Origin: Bacteroidetes bacterium HGW-Bacteroidetes-6
GTDB lineage: Bacteria; Bacteroidota; Bacteroidia; Bacteroidales; DTU049
DNA: 64,000 nt
Direction of reading: 5' to 3'
Assembly (NCBI GenBank): GCA_002842495.1
Contig: PHDB01000007.1
Span: 35,598-99,597, forward strand
Below, piece by piece: positions 1 through 32,124 of this stretch. Under the pieces are notes generated by a model. That model did not search any database. It was given only the letters and a program-made list of their open reading frames with translations, and was not told the origin of the DNA. Numbering within the stretch: the stretch's first letter is position 1; the number at the start of each line of letters is the position of its first letter. The position numbers and the translations under genes are program-made.

Positions 1-192
1 GCTGATTTTATAGTAGAAATAGAGACTGAATATCAGCAGTAAACCATTGCGGATAGGCCGACTGTTGAAAAACACAGAATACAACAGATAAAACACGCCA
101 AAAAGAAGAAAAAATGTAACCGATTGGAATACAAGAGGCTGCGAAGGCAGGTATTGCAGCGATGAGAAGAAATCGTTCCAGGTGAAAGTCAT
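1..192 (-). CDS. MBOAT family O-acyltransferase, N-terminal fragment truncated by window edge
   Basis: Reverse complement from ATG at 192 reads MTFTWNDFFSSLQYLPSQPLVFQSVTFFLLFGVFYLLYSVFFNSRPIRNGLLLIFSLYFYYKIS, open to the edge. It resembles the N-terminus of the MBOAT at 25672 (…FSLYFYYKSS…). Not in the ORF track. Confidence 0.8.
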   Translation of the reverse strand, partial: MTFTWNDFFSSLQYLPSQPLVFQSVTFFLLFGVFYLLYSVFFNSRPIRNGLLLIFSLYFYYKIS

Positions 193-194
193 GG

Positions 195-2186
195 CTACTT
201 GATAATTAGTTTGTCACCAATATTGATTTTATCGGACGTCATTTTGTTGTCCTTTTTGATTTTTTCAACAGTAGTATTGAATTTTTTTGATATCGACCAC
301 AACGAATCACCCTTCTTCACAATATAAATGCTGCCGATTTTTTGATTCGAATTATTGTTGGTCTGGTTGTTTGTAGTTGTTTGATTGCTGGTTGTGCTGC
401 CACTTCCTGAATATATAATCAGTGTTTTGCCAGCCACAATATTATCCGATTTTAACCCATTCCACTTTTTGATATCGGCCACACTCACCTTGTATTTTGC
501 AGCAATAGAACCCAAGTTGTCGCCGTTTTTTATAGTGTACGAAACTTTGCCGGTAGCCTGTGTAGTGTAGTTGGTTTGGTTGCTGCTGTTATTGTTAGCC
601 GAACTTGCCGTTTTGCTAACAATGAGTTTTTGTCCGGCATATATCCGGGTTGAAGATAAATTGTTCCAACGTTGAAGATCGCTAACAGTAACACCATATC
701 GTTTCGAAATACTGCCCAAATTATCGCCCGAGCGAACAGTATAATACTGTCCGCCTGTTGGGGCAACATATGTATTTATAGGGTCGTTAGCATACGAGTT
801 GATTTTGTCGGCTGAAATAATCTCCTGACGATTATAATAGGTGCTTTTGTTAATGACCCATTTGGCAAAATTTGCCGTGTCGATGCGATCGTTGAAAGCA
901 AGCAAACTGTCAGGCTTGCGGTCGAGATACATTAAATACGAGTTCAGAATGGCATTGCAATACAACTCGCCTTTGACCTTATAGCCTTTAAAACTCAGAT
1001 GGGTGCGGTCGCGTTGTGAAAGACCTGTTTTCGACCAGTTGAGCATCGAATAGCGGCCACCCGATACATTGTAGTAGTCATAAAGAATAATATTCTGTTC
1101 TTTGCTGATAAGCCGGGTAAGGGTGCTGTAATCGCTACAATTCGAAACATTAACTCCACGGTAATAAATGTCTTGTGAGTTGGGTAACAAAATGGAGGCG
1201 TTCGGGCAATTGGTTCTGAACACTTCAATTGCTTTATTGAGGCTACTCATGATATATTGGTAATTAAACGCCCCTCTGAAAAAATCGTTGATGCCCAGAT
1301 CGAAAATAACCAAATCGGGATCCAATGCCCTGAGTTGTTCGGCCATCAGATTCTGATTAAAAAAACTGTGGTAGCCTGCGCCATTGATTCCTACACTGGT
1401 ATACAAAATGCCTTTGTCTTGAATACTTTCGATATCGACACCATACAATTCGAAGTATTTTTGCTCCGGTTTCGTTTTATTCAGCATTACTGTGATGGTA
1501 TCAGAAGCTTTAGGGAGGGTGAGCTCAATGTAGGGTAATGTACTGTCGGCACTACAATCTCCGGCAACCCATTCGCCTGTATTTCCGGCTTTCACTTTAA
1601 TGTCGAAACTTTCGTTGCCTTTGTGACAGTAAATCTTTAATTTTCTGAAATCGGGTTGAATCGAATAGTAGTGTCGACGAAAAATCAGCTTAAATCCGGC
1701 AGTTGAGTCGGTGGTAAAAACAGTGATTCCGCTAATACCAATATTGAGTTTGGGCTTCAGTTCAACATTTTTCGAAGAAGCCCATTTGCCATATATTTCG
1801 CTGTAGTAATCGTATGCCGAGTGGGTTCCGGCAGCTTGATAAGGGAAAACCATTCCTCTCCCACCATAACCAAAAATGCCTTGAAGCAGATTGCGGGTAG
1901 TTCCCGTTCCAATATCGGTTTGAATATGCGAGTCGCCGATGTGAAGAATAGATACTTTTTTCTTGTCGGAATTTTTGAGCTTTTCGAAAAAAGGAGCAAT
2001 GGCCTCGTTTGAATACCATTCGCAGATGTTTTTATCGTATTGCAGAAATTCGTAGAATTCGCTGTATTTAATCGATTCTTTCAAATAAGCGGTATCGGTA
2101 GGGCTGTTTTGGGCAATCGTAATCCGCGACAGCGACAGTATTGTTATTGAAAGCAGCAGCAATATGTTGAGCAGCTTTTGTGTCAT
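195..2186 (-). CDS. SGNH/GDSL hydrolase-like protein with three C-terminal LysM domains
   Basis: Signal peptide; block I 'ILHIGDSHIQ', block III 'LGINDFF', block V 'DRTHLSFKG'; three LysM units (YTVRSGDNLGSIS…, YTIKNGDNLGSIA…, YIVKKGDSLWSIS…). Confidence 0.85.
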   Translation of the reverse strand: MTQKLLNILLLLSITILSLSRITIAQNSPTDTAYLKESIKYSEFYEFLQYDKNICEWYSNEAIAPFFEKLKNSDKKKVSILHIGDSHIQTDIGTGTTRNLLQGIFGYGGRGMVFPYQAAGTHSAYDYYSEIYGKWASSKNVELKPKLNIGISGITVFTTDSTAGFKLIFRRHYYSIQPDFRKLKIYCHKGNESFDIKVKAGNTGEWVAGDCSADSTLPYIELTLPKASDTITVMLNKTKPEQKYFELYGVDIESIQDKGILYTSVGINGAGYHSFFNQNLMAEQLRALDPDLVIFDLGINDFFRGAFNYQYIMSSLNKAIEVFRTNCPNASILLPNSQDIYYRGVNVSNCSDYSTLTRLISKEQNIILYDYYNVSGGRYSMLNWSKTGLSQRDRTHLSFKGYKVKGELYCNAILNSYLMYLDRKPDSLLAFNDRIDTANFAKWVINKSTYYNRQEIISADKINSYANDPINTYVAPTGGQYYTVRSGDNLGSISKRYGVTVSDLQRWNNLSSTRIYAGQKLIVSKTASSANNNSSNQTNYTTQATGKVSYTIKNGDNLGSIAAKYKVSVADIKKWNGLKSDNIVAGKTLIIYSGSGSTTSNQTTTNNQTNNNSNQKIGSIYIVKKGDSLWSISKKFNTTVEKIKKDNKMTSDKINIGDKLIIK

Positions 2187-3658
2187 TTCATCGATGTTTT
2201 ACCATGAATGAGATACTTGTTGTACTCGCCCATGATTGCCAGAAATATTTCGTTAACAACAATCTCGCGTCCCTTGTCGCTGTAGTGTCCATCGCGCGAT
2301 GCCCAGCCCTTGCGGTACCAGGCCATTACAGAGTTTTCACCACCCATTAATTCGAGTAAATCGAAGAAAGCACATCCGTTTTTTTGTGCAACTTCTTTTT
2401 GAACATCACGAATTCGGCCGACCATTGGATACGAAGCATAAGTTCCGCCCACACTTCGGGCAACATCGTTAACTCCAATTACCAGCACCGATGCATCGGG
2501 TAGAGCAGCTTTGAAGTGCTGATAAAGCTTGTCGTAGATGTTTTTGATATTGTTGAGTGATGCTTCATTTTTTACATACGGCGTTACATTACCACCAAAT
2601 TGTAAAATTACAAGCTTGTTGTTTATTTTGATGAAATTAGCCTTCAAAAACTCGTTTGAAATAAGCATCAGACCGTCGCCACTGTGTCCGCGTAGACCAT
2701 AATTGTCGAATTGAACTCCAACAGGCGGGTCGAAAGTGAGTCCATAAATTTCGGGACTAGGGCCGGTAAATACAAAGCGAAGCGATACCGGATTTGCACT
2801 CAGCGGGAGACGCAGAACATTGAACGGATCGGGGCTGTCAAGTGTAACATCGGCAAGCAAGTCGCCATTTGTCGAATTGTAAACCTTCAGATTGGCTGGT
2901 TCCATGGCTTTTCCGTACCATAATTTTGCCGTGCTGTAGCCACGGAAGAGCTTAAGAAATAAGGTTGCGTTCGAATAAGAACTTGCAGGTACTTTTATTT
3001 TTATCGTGTCGCCGCCGTCGGTGACAGAATCGCGAGTACTTTCGGGAATACTAAATCGATAACGGAAAACGGTTCCTCCGGGACAATAAAGTCCGGTGCG
3101 CGATTTGTTCTGAAAAACAGTGTACCGAACCCAGTTGGGGCTTGCTGTTCGGGCATAGCTGATAGGTGAAGTAACATCTTCCATGGGAACATAACCAACA
3201 CCGTTTCCTCCAAATTTGTCCTGAAACATAATTCGCAGCAAACTGGTGATACGGTCGCCTTCGATTTGCGAATCGCCATAATGACCAACACGAATAAGGC
3301 TCGAATCGCATTGTTGCAAGGCTCTGAAGAAATTGTCGAGTGCTGTAGATCCGTCATTGAGAGTTGGATTTACAAAGAAATCGCTTGTTTTGAAAACCGA
3401 TTCATCCAAAATGCTCATGCGTTTAATTGCATTCTCATCGATTCCATAGGCTCGCGATTCGAGAATTGCAATTACGCTATCAACATTTTTAGTATTGTCG
3501 ACAACCTTGAAGTTGAACAATTCGTCTTTGGGAATAAACTTCACTGTACGTTCGCCCATCAGATTTACTTTTACATCGTCTTTAGGCCAAAAGCAGGAAG
3601 CAGCAACCAAAATGGCCCCACTTAATATTATAATTGCTAAAACCTGAAATCGTTTCAT
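2183..3658 (-). CDS. SGNH hydrolase-like periplasmic/membrane-anchored protein
   Basis: 'VGHYGDSQIEGD', 'LQFGGN', 'DGHYSDKG' motifs; 4-bp overlap with the downstream SGNH-LysM gene. Confidence 0.75.
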   Translation of the reverse strand: MKRFQVLAIIILSGAILVAASCFWPKDDVKVNLMGERTVKFIPKDELFNFKVVDNTKNVDSVIAILESRAYGIDENAIKRMSILDESVFKTSDFFVNPTLNDGSTALDNFFRALQQCDSSLIRVGHYGDSQIEGDRITSLLRIMFQDKFGGNGVGYVPMEDVTSPISYARTASPNWVRYTVFQNKSRTGLYCPGGTVFRYRFSIPESTRDSVTDGGDTIKIKVPASSYSNATLFLKLFRGYSTAKLWYGKAMEPANLKVYNSTNGDLLADVTLDSPDPFNVLRLPLSANPVSLRFVFTGPSPEIYGLTFDPPVGVQFDNYGLRGHSGDGLMLISNEFLKANFIKINNKLVILQFGGNVTPYVKNEASLNNIKNIYDKLYQHFKAALPDASVLVIGVNDVARSVGGTYASYPMVGRIRDVQKEVAQKNGCAFFDLLELMGGENSVMAWYRKGWASRDGHYSDKGREIVVNEIFLAIMGEYNKYLIHGKTSMK

Positions 3659-3659
3659 A

Positions 3660-3905
3660 TTAGTTATTCACTTTTTCCTGGATCAATAAGAGCATATCGC
3701 CTACATTCTTCATTTTTACCATTTCCTTGAGCTTGAATTTGAAACCAAATGTTTCTTCGACGCGGGCAATCATGGTCAAATGCGACAAACTATCCCATTT
3801 ATCAACATCGTTTGCAGTCATTTCGGGTTTGATTTCAAGATTGGGCTCCTGGAATATTTCGCGAAAAATCAATTGTGTTTTGTTTGTGATTTCTTCCAAA
3901 TTCAT
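3660..3905 (-). CDS. Acyl/aminoacyl carrier protein
   Basis: 81 aa, helical, with DSL phosphopantetheine attachment motif (DKWDSLSHL). Confidence 0.85.
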   Translation of the reverse strand: MNLEEITNKTQLIFREIFQEPNLEIKPEMTANDVDKWDSLSHLTMIARVEETFGFKFKLKEMVKMKNVGDMLLLIQEKVNN

Positions 3906-3911
3906 AACATG

Positions 3912-4589
3912 CTATTTTAAGAGGTTTTTTAATTCGATTTCCATAATCAACATTCCACGTCCTGGATAATACTTCAACACATTCGGGTTGTTACTTATTG
4001 TCTCGCGGATTTTCGTAAAACCCATTTTTTCGTATGCTCCAATGGCAGGAGTATTGTCGGTGTAAGTCATAAGCTGAGCAATTTTTACATCGGGGAAGCT
4101 GTTGGAAACAAGCCTGGCTTGTTCTGCAAAAAGCATTCGAGCCAATCCTTTTCCGCGATGTTCCGGTTCAACAAAAAGCGATTCGAGTTGCATGGTGCCC
4201 GGAGTACGTTTAAGAACCATCGATTGTGCCAACTCGCTGATCGATTGTGCATGTTCGATTGCTGTGGGCGGAAAATATTCCTGAAAGAGTGCTGACCGCA
4301 CTACCCAAGAAGCAATTCCATCCGATTCTTCGACCCAGGCGGCTGTCGCGGCAACCACATCGTGTTCGTATTCGGCAACCAAAAAATGCAAAGGCGACAA
4401 TTCGCAGCCTTCCATTTCTTCAGTCATCATCTCACCAATATATTTGGATGCATCGGCATTGCTCAATCCAAACACAGCTGCGTAACTGGCAATATGCCCA
4501 TTTCCGGCATCAGCACCAAGAATTGTTTTTACCAAAAACGGGATGTCGGATTCGGTTGCCCGCCGAATATGGTAATTGCGGTTATTCAT
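3912..4589 (-). CDS. GNAT family N-acetyltransferase
   Basis: IRRATESDI N-terminus, 'LFVEPEHRGKGLARMLF' acetyl-CoA motif, 'NTPAIGAYEKMGF'. Confidence 0.85.
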   Translation of the reverse strand: MNNRNYHIRRATESDIPFLVKTILGADAGNGHIASYAAVFGLSNADASKYIGEMMTEEMEGCELSPLHFLVAEYEHDVVAATAAWVEESDGIASWVVRSALFQEYFPPTAIEHAQSISELAQSMVLKRTPGTMQLESLFVEPEHRGKGLARMLFAEQARLVSNSFPDVKIAQLMTYTDNTPAIGAYEKMGFTKIRETISNNPNVLKYYPGRGMLIMEIELKNLLK

Positions 4590-6045
4590 GACCGAGAACT
4601 ATTTTGTTGATTTCCTTGCGGTTTATTTTTCCGTTGTTGTTGAGCGGAAAAGCTCCAATAAAGCGAAATTCGGAAGGAATCATATAAAACGGCATTTTGC
4701 TTTTTAGATACTCAGTGAGTTTGTTCAACTCAACGGCTTCTCCTTCGACTGCAGCAATCAGAATGTCGTTTCCGGTGCTATCGTTCGATGCAAGAGTTAC
4801 CACACGTCTGTCGCCAAAAAACGAAGCAATATGATGTTCAATTTCGCTCAATTCAATTCGAAAACCTCTGATTTTTACCTGATAATCTTTTCGCCCAAGG
4901 TAGAAATAAAGTTCGTTTTCGCGTATACAGATGTCGCCGGTTCTGTAAAATTTTATGCCGTTTATATCAACAAAAGCTTCTTTGTTTTTTTCTTCGTTTT
5001 TGAGATAACCGGCTATCACCTGGCCACCACTGAGAAGCAATTCGCCTTTTTCACCATCAGCCACAGGATTATTGTTTTCATCAACAACCAAAGTCTGGAT
5101 TTCGAGTGTTGGCCATCCAATGCTCACAATGCCATTGCGCGAAGGAATGTCGGTTTCGGGCATCCGATACCAAACCGAATAAATAGTCGCCTCGGTTGGA
5201 CCATACAAATTATGAAATTCAGCATTGGGGCAACATTTTTTCCATTCCAAAGTGAGGTCGTATGGCACAGCTTCGCCGCTCAGTGCCATGTATTTCATTT
5301 TGGGGAGGTCTATTTCGTCGAAATAGGGTCGCAAATAAGCTACAACACTCGGAACAAGAATAGCAAAATTGATTTCGTATTCCTCGAGCAACCTGAAAAT
5401 GGTTGGATATTTTATGTTGGTGTTTGGAACAGTGAAAAGGCAACCTCTGAAAATAAACGGAGCGAGAATAGAAACAATGCTTAGATCAAAGCTCAGATCG
5501 AACATTTGTAAAAAGCGGCTGCCGGCTTCGAGCTCATAGTTCATGGCCTCCATGTTGCGAAGGAATGAACGCACATTGCCGTATGACACAGGAACACCTT
5601 TGGGAGTACCAGTACTGCCCGAGGTGAACAAAATATAGGCTGTTTGAGAATCGAGAGGATTGCTCACCTGGAAATTGTTGCTGTTGCTCAAACGGTCCAA
5701 GTGGATAAAACCAACATTATCGCCAGCATCAACCTTCTCGACACTGAAAAGAATATGCGAAATCTCTGCCTGCTCAACAATACTCTGAATCCGGTCGGCC
5801 GGATGATAAGGGTTGAGCGGAACGTAAATATTGCCTGTTGCCCAAATTGCCATTGCCGCAGCATAGGTATCGATGTGATCGCTTGCAACAACTCCAATGG
5901 CTTTTCCTGTCAAATTAAGGTTGAGCAATTGGTTTGCAATGCACTTTGTGCGTTGGTTAAAGGCAGTATAGCTTGCAAATACGTCTTCGACGCAAATAGC
6001 ATTTAAATTGTTGTCGGGTTCCGGAAGAAAGGGAAAGATGGTCAT
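4582..6045 (-). CDS. AMP-forming amino acid adenylation enzyme (DltA-like)
   Basis: AYILFTSGSTGTPKGVPVSYGNV, NLYGPTEATIYSVWY, FYRTGD, GRKDYQVKIRGFRIELSEIE, NNGKINRK. Preferred start is ATG at 6045 (MTIFPFLPEPDNN), since the ORF-track extension to 6150 looks non-coding. Confidence 0.85.
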   Translation of the reverse strand: MTIFPFLPEPDNNLNAICVEDVFASYTAFNQRTKCIANQLLNLNLTGKAIGVVASDHIDTYAAAMAIWATGNIYVPLNPYHPADRIQSIVEQAEISHILFSVEKVDAGDNVGFIHLDRLSNSNNFQVSNPLDSQTAYILFTSGSTGTPKGVPVSYGNVRSFLRNMEAMNYELEAGSRFLQMFDLSFDLSIVSILAPFIFRGCLFTVPNTNIKYPTIFRLLEEYEINFAILVPSVVAYLRPYFDEIDLPKMKYMALSGEAVPYDLTLEWKKCCPNAEFHNLYGPTEATIYSVWYRMPETDIPSRNGIVSIGWPTLEIQTLVVDENNNPVADGEKGELLLSGGQVIAGYLKNEEKNKEAFVDINGIKFYRTGDICIRENELYFYLGRKDYQVKIRGFRIELSEIEHHIASFFGDRRVVTLASNDSTGNDILIAAVEGEAVELNKLTEYLKSKMPFYMIPSEFRFIGAFPLNNNGKINRKEINKIVLGHE

Positions 6046-6262
6046 GCCCTGAATTTCCTGCAAATGTAATACAATATGAAATATTTTTCCGCTACGATTG
6101 GTTTGGTGTATCGACAACGCATTGTTAATTACTGTTTTCTTGTAAAACAACCGGAATGTTCCTCATGATGCAATATTCAACACTTACTGCCTGATTTGAA
6201 AACCATTCTTGATAGTCAAGAAACACCTTTTTACAACAAAAAGATTTATTTTTGCAGAAAAA

Positions 6263-7882
6263 ATGAATACACGAATTTTCATTCTTGCCATTCTGTTGAT
6301 TCCCGCATTTGCCATGGGTCAAAGTCTGAACATCAACAATTCTGGAGCTATTAAAACACAAACCGATTTTGTGAACAATAGCAAGGGCCTTGTGCAGGTT
6401 CTTGATTCCATATATTATTTCGAATATGTTGGAGGAATGTGGAAAAATATCGGCAAAAGATGTATTCAAAGTCGCCATTGGGGAACAAACGGCCTTCCCA
6501 ACGAGTGGTATTCATATGCATATAATCAAGCAACCGGCGAATGGAATAATTATACCTACGAACACTACACTTTTTTAAGCGACACTGCAGAAATTATTGA
6601 TACATACACACAAAAGCCATACAACTCATTCACAATGAATTGGGAAGCTGACACAGCAGCATATTTTGACTATACTGGTTATTACAGCAGGCAATTCGAG
6701 GAGGAAGTATATGAAAACACGCTTATATCAAGAGGTTACGACTTCAATACCAACAATTTCAATGGTGGAATGCGCTATAAGTTTCATCTAATTGACGATA
6801 CCCTTTATGATGTTGTGGAAATGAACAATTTCAATACTTCCACATATAGTTGGGATAAAGCCGCGAAGTATTCCTATTTTTATGATTCCAACGGGTTTGG
6901 TCAAAAAAGGCTCAATCAAACTTGGAGCTCTTCGGACAATTGTTATGTAAATAGTGAGCAGGTTTTTACATCCTGGCAGAACGGAGACAATATCCAGAAA
7001 GTTACCCAATACTGGAATGGAAGCACATGGGATAATAACGAAAAACAATACTACGAATACGATGCCAATCACCATGTGACGTTATACGACAAGTCGCTTT
7101 GGGATGGAGTAAACGACGAGTGGTTGTACGATTATGAATACACATATGTGTACTCAGGTTCTTTGCTAAGTGTACGCACATATCTCGACTGGAATACTAT
7201 CTCAAATGCATTTGTGAATCACACACGCTACACATACACATACGACAGTAATGAGAATATAATTACCCTACTTCGTCAATCATGGTCTGGTTCAGCATGG
7301 GTAAATGCATACAGGACTACTTACACATACAATTCCGCCGATTTGCGAACTCTTACCCTGGAAGAATCGTGGGATAGCGGTACTTCGACTTGGAAAAACA
7401 ATCAGCGCGAAGTGAACACCTTCGACTCCAACAATAACAAAACGCAATATCTTCTTCAATACTGGGACAACGGAACATCGTCGTGGAGAAATGGTGTAAA
7501 AGACGACTATGTTTTTGATTCAAACAACAACAAAACACAGTATATATATTCTACCTGGAACATTCCAAGTGCTGCGTGGGATTACATTAGCAAAACCGAC
7601 TACTATTATTCAGCATTCGATGCCACCAGCCTTACCGAATTGTTCAACAACAAACTATCTGTGTTTCCAAATCCAACAAATGGAGAGATTACTATTGATA
7701 GTCGCGAAATAAACGCCAACCGCATCACTATTTTCGACATGAATGGACGAGTGGTTTACGACGAGAGCAATCCTGTTTCGGGTAGAACAATCAATCTTCG
7801 CAGCTATGGAACTGGTTTATACAACATTTCTGTAACCGACGAAACGGGCGAAATTCGCACATCAAAAGTTGTTGTTCAGTAG
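6263..7882 (+). CDS. Secreted W/Y-rich repeat protein with T9SS type A-like sorting domain
   Basis: Signal peptide MNTRIFILAILLIPAFAMGQ at ATG 6263; repeated W…W…YxYD pattern; C-term SVFPNPTNGEITI…IFDMNGRVVYD…GLYNISVTD…KVVVQ. Confidence 0.8.
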   Translation: MNTRIFILAILLIPAFAMGQSLNINNSGAIKTQTDFVNNSKGLVQVLDSIYYFEYVGGMWKNIGKRCIQSRHWGTNGLPNEWYSYAYNQATGEWNNYTYEHYTFLSDTAEIIDTYTQKPYNSFTMNWEADTAAYFDYTGYYSRQFEEEVYENTLISRGYDFNTNNFNGGMRYKFHLIDDTLYDVVEMNNFNTSTYSWDKAAKYSYFYDSNGFGQKRLNQTWSSSDNCYVNSEQVFTSWQNGDNIQKVTQYWNGSTWDNNEKQYYEYDANHHVTLYDKSLWDGVNDEWLYDYEYTYVYSGSLLSVRTYLDWNTISNAFVNHTRYTYTYDSNENIITLLRQSWSGSAWVNAYRTTYTYNSADLRTLTLEESWDSGTSTWKNNQREVNTFDSNNNKTQYLLQYWDNGTSSWRNGVKDDYVFDSNNNKTQYIYSTWNIPSAAWDYISKTDYYYSAFDATSLTELFNNKLSVFPNPTNGEITIDSREINANRITIFDMNGRVVYDESNPVSGRTINLRSYGTGLYNISVTDETGEIRTSKVVVQ

Positions 7883-8633: not shown

Positions 8634-10244
8634 ATGAAAACACGAATTCTTTTTCTTTTGTTTTTTGTTGTCCCAGTATTATCGTTTTCGCAGATAAACA
8701 CCGACAACAACTTCATTAAGCCCGACAAAGGCTCTGTTCGATCTGTTATGGGTATTGTTCATGTGCTTGATTCCAGTTTGTTTTCCGATTACAATAGTGG
8801 AGCATGGGACTACACATCAAAAAGATGTATTCAAAGCCGCCATTGGGGCTCTCAGGGGTTGCCTAACGAATGGATTAACTACAGCTTCGACTCCGACATG
8901 TCGCAATGGGTTAAGTATTATTATGAGCGTGCATCCTATCAGGACGATTCCATTGCCAATTACGATATAGTTTTCGCAAAACCGTGGAGTTCATTTATAA
9001 ACGATTGGACCAACGATACACTTGCTTACTATGATTATTCGAGTGCCATTAGTACTCAATTTGGAGTAATCTATGAAAACAAATTTATTGCAACATCTTA
9101 CGACTTTTTAACAAATAGTATAACTGGAGGTATGAAATACAATCTATTTGTTTATGCCGATTCACTTTACGATCACTATGAGCAGTTTAATTATAATACA
9201 GCAATCAATCAGTGGGACAAGTATTGGCTGTATAGTTTTTCGTACGATGCCAACAACTATCTACAAAAACGTCTAGAGCAATTGTGGAACGCTTCCGACA
9301 ATGTTTACGAAAATGTCAATCAATATTTTTATATATACACCAATGGAAGACTAACACAAGAAGTTAGTCAGAATTGGTCGGGAACAGTCTGGTCCAACAG
9401 CACCAAGAACATCTATGAATACGATGCAAATCTCAACAAAACAAAACACCTGCATTATACATGGGATGCTGTTAACGATGTTTGGAAGCCTTCGTATCAG
9501 TATTTGTACACATATACAGGGAATAATAACACAGAGAAACTTTATCAGGTATGGAATACCGGCACCTCATCGTGGGACAATAGCAACAGGCATGTTTATA
9601 CCTACAATACAAATTCTGATATGCTAACCGACAGGCGAGATTTATGGTCAGCCGGAGCATGGAAAAACGATTACAGATACACCTATACGTTTAATACCAG
9701 TTTTCTGCAAACCCTACAATTGTACGAGATTTGGGATAATGGTACAATGGCTTGGAAAAACTCATACAGATATGTTTATTCTTACGACGGCAACGATAAC
9801 GAAACCAATTACACACGACAGAACTGGGACAACATGGCTTCGTCGTGGGTAAACGATTCCAAAAGCGATTATACCTACGATTCGTACAATTCAATGACAC
9901 TTGCGACTCATTCGACTTGGAATACAGGGACAAGCAGTTGGGACTATGAGAGTAAAGCCGAATACTATTGGTCCGATTTCGATGCCACAAATGTAAGCGA
10001 CATTTTAAAAAATCCAACGTCGCTTTTTCCCAATCCAACTTCAGGAATTATTCATTTTGATAGTGGTAGCAACGAAATTAGTCGTATCACCATTAGCGAT
10101 TTGACAGGAAAAGTTGTTTATGATGCCTCAACCGAATCGTTTTCGAATGAATTGGATTTGCGACCTTATGGTCGTGGCATGTACAACATTAGTATTACAA
10201 CCGAAAACAACGAGGTTTACAATTCAAAAATCGTGGTTCAATAA
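8634..10244 (+). CDS. Secreted W/Y-rich repeat protein with T9SS type A-like sorting domain (paralogue of 6263-7882)
   Basis: Shares 'KRCIQSRHWG…GLPNEW' with the 6263 gene; tandem W/Y repeats; C-term SLFPNPTSGIIHF…SDLTGKVVYD…GMYNISITTE…KIVVQ. Confidence 0.8.
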   Translation: MKTRILFLLFFVVPVLSFSQINTDNNFIKPDKGSVRSVMGIVHVLDSSLFSDYNSGAWDYTSKRCIQSRHWGSQGLPNEWINYSFDSDMSQWVKYYYERASYQDDSIANYDIVFAKPWSSFINDWTNDTLAYYDYSSAISTQFGVIYENKFIATSYDFLTNSITGGMKYNLFVYADSLYDHYEQFNYNTAINQWDKYWLYSFSYDANNYLQKRLEQLWNASDNVYENVNQYFYIYTNGRLTQEVSQNWSGTVWSNSTKNIYEYDANLNKTKHLHYTWDAVNDVWKPSYQYLYTYTGNNNTEKLYQVWNTGTSSWDNSNRHVYTYNTNSDMLTDRRDLWSAGAWKNDYRYTYTFNTSFLQTLQLYEIWDNGTMAWKNSYRYVYSYDGNDNETNYTRQNWDNMASSWVNDSKSDYTYDSYNSMTLATHSTWNTGTSSWDYESKAEYYWSDFDATNVSDILKNPTSLFPNPTSGIIHFDSGSNEISRITISDLTGKVVYDASTESFSNELDLRPYGRGMYNISITTENNEVYNSKIVVQ

Positions 10245-24009: not shown

Positions 24010-24074
24010 ATTAGCGGAATAATTTTTGTAAAAATACATATTTTGAATTATTCCGATATTTGAAAAATTTTTCT

Positions 24075-24857
24075 ATGAAAAGAGAATTCTTTCTTTTGGG
24101 CCTTTTTTTGTTGGCTTTGCTTCCTGTAAGCGGCTTAAATGCTCAGAACAACTGGCAAAGTTTTTTGTCGAAAGAAAAATTTGTTTACAAAGGAAATATA
24201 CAGCCCTACCGTTTGTATCTGCCTGATTCTATTCAACCAGATGAAAAATTGCCTTTGATTTTGTTTTTGCATGGAGCCGGTGAACGTGGAAACGATAATC
24301 AAACACAATTACTGCACGGCGTGAGTCATTTTATGGATGTGCAGATCCGCAACGAATATCGTTTTATCCTGATAGCTCCACAGTGTCCCGAAGATGCTCG
24401 TTGGGTAGAGGTTGACTGGACATTAGCATCGCACAAAATGCCAGCACGCATCTCTGTGCCACTTGAACTTTCGTTTGCCCTCATCGATTCACTAATGAGT
24501 GTCTATCCGGTCGATTCCAACAGGGTTTATGTTACCGGTCTGTCGATGGGAGGGTTTGGTACCTGGGATGCAATGCAGCGTCGGCCGGGATTTTTTGCAG
24601 CATCAATGCCGGTTTGTGGAGGTGGTGATGAAACACAGGCTTGTGCAATTATCGCCACTCCTATCAAAGCATTTCATGGGAAACTCGATCATCTGGTAAT
24701 GCCTGCTCGCACAATAAATATGGTAAATGCTGTTAATCAGTGTGGTGGTGGTGCAGAATGTGTTTTGTTTCCTAATCTTGGTCATCTCTGCTGGGAGCAA
24801 GTATATTCGAATGTTGAAAATCTTCGCTGGATGTTTGCTCAAAAAAGGCAGAATTAA
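24075..24857 (+). CDS. Secreted alpha/beta hydrolase (esterase / PHB depolymerase-like)
   Basis: 'LILFLHGAGERGNDN', 'VTGLSMGGFGTWDAM' nucleophile elbow; signal peptide from ATG 24075 (TTG at 24060 is an alternative). Confidence 0.85.
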   Translation: MKREFFLLGLFLLALLPVSGLNAQNNWQSFLSKEKFVYKGNIQPYRLYLPDSIQPDEKLPLILFLHGAGERGNDNQTQLLHGVSHFMDVQIRNEYRFILIAPQCPEDARWVEVDWTLASHKMPARISVPLELSFALIDSLMSVYPVDSNRVYVTGLSMGGFGTWDAMQRRPGFFAASMPVCGGGDETQACAIIATPIKAFHGKLDHLVMPARTINMVNAVNQCGGGAECVLFPNLGHLCWEQVYSNVENLRWMFAQKRQN

Positions 24858-24883
24858 TTACTTTTGTCTCAAATTCGTGCCTT

Positions 24884-25671
24884 TTGAAATTGAATAAACC
24901 TCCCAAAGTATATTTCTTGTACCTGTTTTTGTTGGCCGGTGCACTGGTTTTGTTTTCAGCTCTGTCATTTACCGATACATCGTTGGGCATTGGTAAAATA
25001 GAACTAAAAGATTCTAAAATAAAGCAGTATTTTTTTCCATCGCCGAAGTTGGCTTTGGTAGCCGATACCATTAAGCGCACTGGGGTATCTGAAAAAATTG
25101 ACTCTTCGGCACAGAAATTTTTGTTTATTGGCGACTCGATGCTGGAATTTATGCGTATCCGTTTCAACGACTATTGTCATAAGAATGGTCATACAATGAA
25201 TACGGTCATTTGGTACAGCTCTTCGTCGCTCTGGTACGGACAATGCGATACACTAAGTTATTTCATTAAAAAGCATCAACCAACCTACGTTGTACTTGTT
25301 TTGGGTGCAAACGAATTGTTTATTAAAGACATTAAAACAGAGCGAGCCGAATTTGTAAAGCACATCATTGCAGAAATGGGCGATGTTCCGTTTATATGGG
25401 TTGGACCTCCCAACTGGAAAGACGATACGGGAATCAACGATTTAATTTTTAGATATGCTGGTCGCGATCGTTATTTCCCATCGAAGAACCTCAGTTATGA
25501 ACGCACCAAAGACGGAGCACATCCCACGCGTCCTTCAGCCTATAAATGGATGGACTCGGTTGCAGTGTATATGCAAAACGATGCCCGCTACCGTGTTTTG
25601 ATGGAGATGCCCGATACTTTTTTAGGGAAAGTTCCTCCGACTGAAATTCTAAAACCCAATCCTCCTTTCTG

Positions 25672-25672
<1 letters not shown>
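24884..25672 (+). CDS. SGNH hydrolase-like protein (partner of MBOAT)
   Basis: TTG start; N-term TM; 'FLFIGDSMLEFM', 'VLVLGANELF', 'TKDGAHPTRPSAY'; abuts the MBOAT gene. Confidence 0.8.
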
Positions 25673-27138
<1,466 letters not shown>

Positions 27139-31467: not shown

Positions 31468-32124
31468 TTAAACTGAATCTCTGTCTTCCTGCGCAATAGC
31501 AATCATCAGATCGTTGTAGCTACGCAAATTGAGTTTATAGGCTCGTTGCTTCGATTTGAGTTTCACAAAGCCGCGCATTTCGGCATCGTTCAGATTGAAC
31601 GGTTCGATAGCAATATTTCCTTTCAGGGTAACATATCGTTTTCCGTAGGCTTTAAAAATGGCTTCTTTGAACGACCAATAGGCTACCGCTTTTTGAGCAT
31701 CTCCACTTTTTTCCCAATCGGCAGCTTCATCCGGATTCATGAATTTATCGGTGATTTTCAAAATTTTCGGATGAACGGGTTCAATATCAAGACCGTGCGC
31801 CAATGTCATATTAGGCGAAATGAGCACTGCCGAATAGGTGTTGCAATGAGTTATGCTGATAGATCGTTGCGGATTGACCAAAAAAGGCTTGTTGTTATCG
31901 TCGTAAAAGATTCTATAAATATAATCGCTTTCAACCAGATTGCGAATGAGTGCTCTGTAGCTCAGCCATTGCTTTCGGCGTGAGTCGCAGCCAAACGAAT
32001 TCAATGTTTCAAATTCTTCTTTATTGAGAAACAGCTTCGAAATAAGATCGTCAACACTTTCGGTGATGTGCCACAAACCAAGTTGCAGGTTGTCGTTGAT
32101 CCATTCGTGATAGACAAGTGGCAT
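31468..32124 (-). CDS. 4'-phosphopantetheinyl transferase
   Basis: 'HGLDIEPVHPKIL' and 'YWSFKEAIFKAYGKR' Sfp-type motifs. Confidence 0.9.
   Translation of the reverse strand: MPLVYHEWINDNLQLGLWHITESVDDLISKLFLNKEEFETLNSFGCDSRRKQWLSYRALIRNLVESDYIYRIFYDDNNKPFLVNPQRSISITHCNTYSAVLISPNMTLAHGLDIEPVHPKILKITDKFMNPDEAADWEKSGDAQKAVAYWSFKEAIFKAYGKRYVTLKGNIAIEPFNLNDAEMRGFVKLKSKQRAYKLNLRSYNDLMIAIAQEDRDSV

Follow-up and report, generated by a model that had tools for sequence, protein, structure and literature searches.

Amino-acid decoration of a Gram-negative envelope polymer by an adenylation domain (A-domain) and a carrier protein is known from AlmEFG of Vibrio cholerae and the dra locus of Bordetella, and alginate O-acetylation by AlgI, AlgJ and AlgX combines one MBOAT with two SGNH-type partners, using an acetyl donor and neither a carrier protein nor an A-domain. 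In the Dlt system (dltXABCD, Bacillota), DltA activates D-alanine, DltC carries it, and DltB and DltD transfer it; DltC sits on the horizontal helix HC of DltB, at Met302, Val305, Ile306, Met309 and Lys312 (PMC11035591). The FxYxxF motif that bears the acyl group on its Tyr is part of PatA in peptidoglycan O-acetylation, whereas in Dlt it is found on the separate DltX, and according to recent work (2025) a carrier protein is absent from all pathways but Dlt, the others evidently drawing on acyl-CoA (PMC12148441). In O-acetylpeptidoglycan (OAP) clusters, ape1b lies upstream of pat, sometimes with ape1c between them; holders include Bacteroides and Porphyromonas, and 27-69% of Bacteroides peptidoglycan is O-acetylated (Weadge et al. 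2005, PMC1199599). Here we describe a six-gene operon from Bacteroidetes bacterium HGW-Bacteroidetes-6 (Bacteroidales), located in a stretch of 64,000 nucleotides (the window; contig PHDB01000007.1, positions 35,598 to 99,597), which encodes an A-domain, a GNAT acetyltransferase, a carrier protein, two SGNH proteins (SGNH1 and SGNH2, the latter with LysM domains) and an MBOAT. Unlike this operon, AlmEFG and dra target lipid A or lipopolysaccharide, AlmG is not an MBOAT, and both lack a GNAT and an SGNH pair. We consider it probable that the operon specifies a carrier-protein-fed MBOAT/SGNH O-acyltransferase, which would attach a small and probably N-acetylated amino acid to a glycan of the periplasm, peptidoglycan being the likeliest one.

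Gene content and conservation of the operon

The six genes lie on the minus strand in the order A-domain, GNAT, carrier protein, SGNH1, SGNH-LysM and MBOAT, as an earlier sequence-only reading had placed them, and each has a Pfam match (Table 1). Successive junctions measure -8, +6, +1, -4 and +2 bp, making co-transcription likely. The A-domain gene starts with ATG at 6045, with TTG at 6150 as a possible alternative. Only the first 64 codons of the MBOAT fall within the window; extending the contig to the left, as that reading had advised, yielded an intact open reading frame (ORF) of 497 amino acids on the same strand (C37:34296-35789, equivalent to L003:8699-10192).

The same six genes recur in the same order, with different flanks, in four other genomes, three from the same genus (G001, G002 and G003) and one from another genus (G005), such that the operon is kept as a unit in five genomes of its family (G000-G003 and G005). 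Relative to the window proteins, SGNH1 is 70-96% identical (96% in genus-mate G001), the MBOAT 71-92%, the A-domain 61-89% and the GNAT 45-87%. A survey of 393 genomes of the order also located the operon in family f13 (G532, G628 and, cut by a contig end, G766) and as far as SGNH1 in a genome of another family (G543), so that the set, complete or nearly so, spans three families. Two genomes (G050 and G494) keep the GNAT, carrier, SGNH1, SGNH-LysM and MBOAT genes together with the A-domain gene elsewhere in the genome, and in two others (G555 and G720) only the carrier still adjoins, the A-domain again being elsewhere. Strong A-domain matches (20 genomes) and strong SGNH1 matches (15 genomes) coincide in 10 of the 393 genomes against 0.76 expected, with a hypergeometric P of 2e-11 that is uncorrected for relatedness and overstates independence because the genomes are related. 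Because its order recurs in four further genomes and in other families, the six-gene arrangement is more than chance. The earlier reading had held that its proposal would fall if the genes were not co-conserved, if the A-domain activated fatty rather than amino acids, or if the set had already been characterised: the genes are co-conserved, the A-domain retains the Asp typical of amino-acid activation, and no description of this set came up in literature searches that combined MBOAT with carrier protein and adenylation for Bacteroidetes.

The MBOAT

The MBOAT ends in the acyl-shuttle motif FIYIKF, a DltX-type motif fused to the enzyme as in PatA, and its His303 and His345 align with His289 and His336 of DltB. 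At the place of helix HC, MBOATs of the acyl-CoA type read Y[IL][PS]LGG[NST][RK], whereas that of the operon reads YQPLAFAWRRGGK: the PLGG[N/S] loop (termed here GG) is gone, with PLAFAWRRGGK replacing PLGGNRKG. The replaced stretch is DltB-like and aligns with the DltB residues that contact DltC (Met302 to Lys312). As judged from these alignments, the MBOAT is a hybrid, with a Dlt-type donor side and Pat-type transfer.

In the set of loci from which this signature was derived, all 17 carrier-adjacent MBOATs lack the GG loop, and of 17 others, with no carrier beside them, 12 possess it. Besides the DltB row, the 17 carrier-adjacent proteins fall into three branches of a maximum-likelihood tree: a main clade (support 100/98), a branch of A-domain/carrier/MBOAT loci (G472, G618 and G737), and the MBOAT of G246, which is paired with a fatty-acyl-AMP-ligase-like enzyme. 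Two test sets were made up of loci not used in the derivation. All 45 MBOATs from a PF03062 list, which favoured high-scoring proteins, are of the GG type (44 with GG[NST] and one, PLGGRK, called by eye), and no carrier gene lies within 2.5 kb of any of them. Among loci reached through their A-domains, 6/6 carrier-adjacent MBOATs are non-GG and 2/2 without an adjacent carrier are GG, and two of these loci hold both types side by side. With the test sets joined, 6/6 carrier-adjacent MBOATs are non-GG against 47/47 non-adjacent MBOATs with GG (Fisher P 4e-8).

The same division appears in records of a plasmid collection, which derive mostly from other phyla. All five carrier-adjacent MBOATs there are non-GG: two are annotated as DltB, one lies beside a carrier and an AMP-ligase in Metabacillus (pB218, L211), one beside a carrier and a nonribosomal peptide synthetase in Nonomuraea (L213), and one 1.2 kb from a carrier, among unannotated genes, on pSymB of Sinorhizobium meliloti (L209). 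GG without a carrier is found in PatA of the gonococcus, recognised by its C-terminal FIYANF, as well as in Proteus, Campylobacter, Sphingomonas and ten others, with the call for L220 (YIPFGGNRKG) made by eye. In every case seen, GG thus means no carrier, and a missing GG is necessary but not sufficient for one, since no carrier was detected for some of the non-GG MBOATs outside Bacteroidota. The carrier profile used throughout missed one annotated dltC. We consider it highly probable that the MBOAT of the operon is carrier-fed.

Comparison with Dlt

Like Dlt, the operon combines an A-domain and a dedicated carrier, with its phosphopantetheine Ser39 in a WDSL motif, with an MBOAT bearing a DltB-like HC stretch and a membrane-anchored SGNH-type partner. 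It differs in having the shuttle motif on the MBOAT, an extra GNAT, an altered A-domain pocket, no DltD-family protein and a Gram-negative host. The A-domain scores 266.7 bits against the DltA equivalog TIGR01734 (cut-off 559.85) and 312 bits, of 317 needed, against the general amino-acid adenylation model AA-adenyl-dom, and the MBOAT, whose C-terminus is longer and holds the shuttle motif, scores 179.9 bits against the DltB equivalog TIGR04091 (cut-off 375). Neither SGNH1 nor SGNH-LysM matches DltD (PF04914), for which a positive control (L044:5952-7142) scores 142 bits, and no ORF for a DltX microprotein lies between the operon genes, where gaps are at most 6 bp; a control DltX was found in G037 (L044:5806-5955). 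This last genome, also of the Bacteroidales, carries a real dltC-dltD-dltX-dltB-dltA operon (L044:3125-7376, G037:C250), with a DltX ending in FVYQQF and a DltA-type pocket, so that the contrast can be drawn directly within one order. Its DltB has WNG where others have the catalytic His of WHG, and its activity is uncertain.

Plain Dlt membership was therefore rejected on four tested features. The sequence-only reading, which had the cluster keeping all four Dlt roles, does not hold in that form: the DltD family is missing, the DltA and DltB scores reach only about half their cut-offs, Cys269 of DltA is replaced by Ser, and DltX gives way to a C-terminal motif of the MBOAT. Its Dlt-like donor half is borne out by the co-conservation of A-domain, carrier and MBOAT and by the docking stretch of the MBOAT.

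The donor genes: A-domain, GNAT and carrier protein

The binding pocket of the A-domain was read by alignment to Bacillus cereus DltA, with the numbering checked at D197 and C269, and gives D L V I A S L I Y K, where DltA has D L M T L C T V A K. The equivalents of D197 and K492 are retained, and this Asp, which contacts the amino group, and Lys are present in 31/31 aligned A-domains; the Cys269 equivalent is Ser, while DltA controls from Listeria and Lactobacillus retain Cys. By alignment, the last variable place of the pocket is bulky, as it is in module 2 of linear gramicidin synthetase, a glycine-specific module. The pocket points to a likely substrate among small amino acids of the Gly, Ala or Ser class. 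Operons of the other families have the code D L M L L C V I F K in common, and the substrate may differ between lineages. That the cargo is an amino acid we regard as highly probable.

Residues E57, W85, E87 and R145 of the GNAT are invariant over 19 relatives. Its predicted structure (predicted local distance difference test, pLDDT, 68) most resembles N-acetyltransferases of amines, RimI/Ard1 and puromycin acetyltransferase among them, a weak likeness to a generic fold. A GNAT between A-domain and carrier recurs in clusters without an MBOAT (G018, G054, G741 and G624), beside another type of MBOAT (G618, G737 and G513), and in multi-GNAT clusters (G322 and G408, the latter with FkbH). This recurrent place argues that the GNAT acts on the carrier-bound amino acid, and because its acetyl-CoA motif is intact, N-acetylation would be the simplest reading of the step. 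N-acylation of the carrier-bound amino acid, an idea already put forward from the sequence, fits this constancy among otherwise different clusters, and we lean towards it. The carrier's Ser39 is invariant in 16 carriers.

Other donor enzymes are found at related loci. L134 (G647:C205), L129 (G705:C462) and L093 (G246) have the same MBOAT/SGNH chassis; an acetate-CoA-ligase-like gene is present at the first two, accompanied by a carrier only in G647, and a fatty-acyl-AMP-ligase-like enzyme with a carrier in G246. L107 (G322:C11), which has LuxE and LuxC-like enzymes, and L108 (G408:C10), the cluster with the FkbH protein, combine one carrier with two A-domains or with as many as four GNATs of this family. 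At L039, L040, L139 and L186, A-domain, GNAT and carrier are followed by a protein of 360-380 amino acids that has no Pfam match above cut-off where scanned, with no MBOAT nearby; L039 and L040 adjoin a polysaccharide deacetylase. The same donor module apparently serves another transferase at these four loci.

The SGNH pair and the acceptor

The last three genes resemble ape1b-ape1c-pat and PatA/PatB/Ape1 systems in their SGNH-SGNH-MBOAT order and in an MBOAT with both His residues and a C-terminal FxYxxF motif. Among solved structures, both SGNH proteins come closest to meningococcal Ape1 (4k3u; SGNH2 at 64 bits) and its relatives. The SGNH1-SGNH2-MBOAT set is common in Bacteroidota without any donor genes; in Bacteroides finegoldii and Parabacteroides distasonis, profiles of the two proteins match, in the same order, the SGNH gene pair that precedes the MBOAT (96/111 and 53/127 bits). 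The second SGNH, which had been counted as an addition, is therefore ruled out as a novelty, since a pair is normal for an OAP cluster: the chassis is already known, and the novelty lies on the donor side. The operon differs from OAP clusters in its preceding A-domain, GNAT and carrier genes, in the missing PLGG[N/S] loop and in the LysM domains of SGNH2.

In SGNH1, S130, G324, N357 and H458 are invariant in 25 relatives, and a hydrophobic helix at the N-terminus indicates that the protein is probably membrane-anchored. Its predicted structure (4 sequences) has a mean pLDDT of 38, too low to tell PatB from Ape1 by fold. No match to DUF459, the PatB family, was found in SGNH1 by Pfam scan, and both SGNH proteins keep the glycine of block II, a position that we assume from comparison with TesA; in PatB transferases this residue is replaced by Ser or Asn (PMC12148441). 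For these two reasons the operon, as far as its sequence tells, is not simply PatAB. SGNH-LysM begins with a signal peptide, and its three LysM domains agree with peptidoglycan as the acceptor. Peptidoglycan is the likeliest acceptor because the last three genes take the form of the Bacteroidota ape1b-ape1c-pat cluster, and we favour it by a little.

Proposed mechanism and alternative explanations

Gene content and order, co-conservation, motifs and the carrier-type docking signature are observed; from them we infer the reactions, with their cargo and acceptor, as follows. The A-domain would use ATP to activate a small alpha-amino acid and load it onto the phosphopantetheine at Ser39 of the carrier, and the GNAT would acetylate the alpha-amine while the amino acid is held there. 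The charged carrier would then dock on the MBOAT at its HC helix, on the cytoplasmic side, from which the group would pass through the His303/His345 site to the Tyr of FIYIKF at the periplasmic face. Membrane-anchored SGNH1 would receive it on Ser130 and esterify the glycan, and SGNH-LysM, held on peptidoglycan, could be a second transferase or an editing esterase.

Several observations weigh against this scheme. Both SGNH proteins retain the block II glycine (G324 and G269), so that transferase activity of SGNH1 is not assured, the weakest point of the mechanism. The carrier scores 21 bits for PP-binding, barely above the Pfam cut-off of 20.8. Four non-GG MBOATs outside Bacteroidota (L208, L223 and two at L224) have no detected carrier, and none adjoins the MBOAT in a close chassis relative (G242) or in two members of the same MBOAT clade (G023 and G466); a guess that the gene after the G023 MBOAT is a cut ligase proved wrong. 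A-domain/carrier/MBOAT loci without a GNAT (L193, L195 and L197) make the GNAT optional in general, and an unacylated, aminoacyl version therefore probably exists.

The operon could instead be a true Dlt system, given that the A-domain, carrier and MBOAT roles match, that DltA is among the best curated matches of the A-domain and DltB the sole one of the MBOAT, and that D, L and K of the pocket are the same as in DltA; the missed cut-offs, the Ser in place of Cys269, the lack of DltD and of a DltX ORF, and the presence of a GNAT and two Ape-like SGNH proteins make this very improbable. Alternatively, the MBOAT and SGNH proteins might carry out ordinary peptidoglycan O-acetylation from acetyl-CoA, with A-domain, GNAT and carrier forming a separate, merely co-transcribed module for a small molecule or lipid: the three-gene chassis is indeed widespread without donor genes, and A-domain-GNAT-carrier occurs without an MBOAT in G018, G054, G741, G322 and G408. 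Against this stand the co-conservation and order across three families and the MBOAT's missing PLGG loop, which, G238 apart, every carrier-free relative with this chassis in the sister clade has; moreover, a GG-type MBOAT/SGNH pair elsewhere in the window could perform O-acetylation, and we judge the two-module explanation unlikely.

The remaining alternatives concern the donor chemistry. The GNAT might pass the acyl group from the aminoacyl-carrier to an amine, of an amino sugar or a lipid, rather than N-acetylate it, as could be argued from the multi-GNAT clusters of G322 and G408 and from the second, unrelated transferase-like protein that follows the carrier in G018, G054 and G741. Its acetyl-CoA motif RGKGLA is canonical, however, its model lies, if weakly, nearest to amine N-acetyltransferases, and the downstream MBOAT would be left without cargo, so that we give this possibility, too, little weight. 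That the A-domain loads something other than an amino acid, the decoration being another acyl group from an exchangeable donor module, is suggested by the acetate-CoA-ligase-like and fatty-acyl-AMP-ligase-like enzymes paired with carriers in G647 and G246; yet the amino-group Asp and the Lys are kept throughout the aligned A-domains, the best matches of the A-domain in the window are amino-acid adenylation models, and for this operon we find it the least credible of the four.

Features of the window and neighbouring genes

Table 1. Operon genes and related features of the window
Feature	Coordinates	Strand	Evidence
MBOAT, N-terminal 64 codons	1..192	-	MBOAT 80 bits (Pfam)
SGNH2 (SGNH-LysM), ape1c-like, secreted, predicted peptidoglycan-binding; possible second transferase or esterase	195..2186	-	LysM 167 bits in 3 stretches; GDSL_2 43 bits
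SGNH1, membrane-anchored periplasmic, ape1b-like; likely acyl acceptor from the MBOAT and putative transferase	2183..3658	-	GDSL_2 43 bits
Carrier protein, phosphopantetheine site Ser39 (WDSL)	3660..3905	-	PP-binding 21 bits (Pfam)
GNAT acetyltransferase, proposed to N-acylate the carrier-bound aminoacyl group	3912..4589	-	Acetyltransf_7 42 bits; acetyl-CoA motif RGKGLA
Stand-alone amino-acid adenylation enzyme, DltA-like, not DltA	4582..6045	-	AMP-binding PF00501 203 bits
Second SGNH (24884-25672) and MBOAT (25672-27138), internal control outside the operon	24884..27138	+	FIYFQF; PLGGNRKG loop; no carrier gene nearby
4'-phosphopantetheinyl transferase, distant; could activate the carrier protein	31468..32124	-	ACPS PF01648 47 bits

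Two related large secreted proteins (6209-7882 and 8634-10244) adjoin the operon and are divergent from the A-domain gene; a type IX secretion tail is present on the first at least. The second MBOAT/SGNH pair is likely an ordinary O-acetylation pair; an esterase gene lies directly upstream of it (region 24060-27138), and its SGNH weakly resembles DUF459/PatB. About 3 kb past the operon MBOAT, on the opposite strand, is a gene of the Alanine-racemase-N family (L003:4402-5502, C37:29999-31099); relatives whose sequence covers that place do not show it next to the operon.

Significance

The loci described here contradict, as a general rule, the statement that MBOAT/SGNH pathways other than Dlt lack a carrier and use acyl-CoA (PMC12148441). 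They may, and we propose this tentatively, belong to a class of envelope modification in which a periplasmic glycan, peptidoglycan or another, is O-esterified with N-acyl-amino acids by a carrier-fed MBOAT and SGNH proteins. Donor modules would be interchangeable in such a class (for amino acids, with a GNAT or without; an acetate-like ligase; or a fatty-acyl ligase), and across bacteria the PLGG[N/S] loop would tell acyl-CoA-fed from carrier-fed enzymes. Among thousands of MBOATs, this signature could predict, from the sequence by itself, those that are carrier-fed, and hence a gene cluster with cargo enzymes. If the proposed mechanism is true, it would be a cell-wall decoration of a sort nobody has described, and amino-acid esters on peptidoglycan would alter sensitivity to autolysins and lysozyme as well as the view that immune sensors have of the cell wall.

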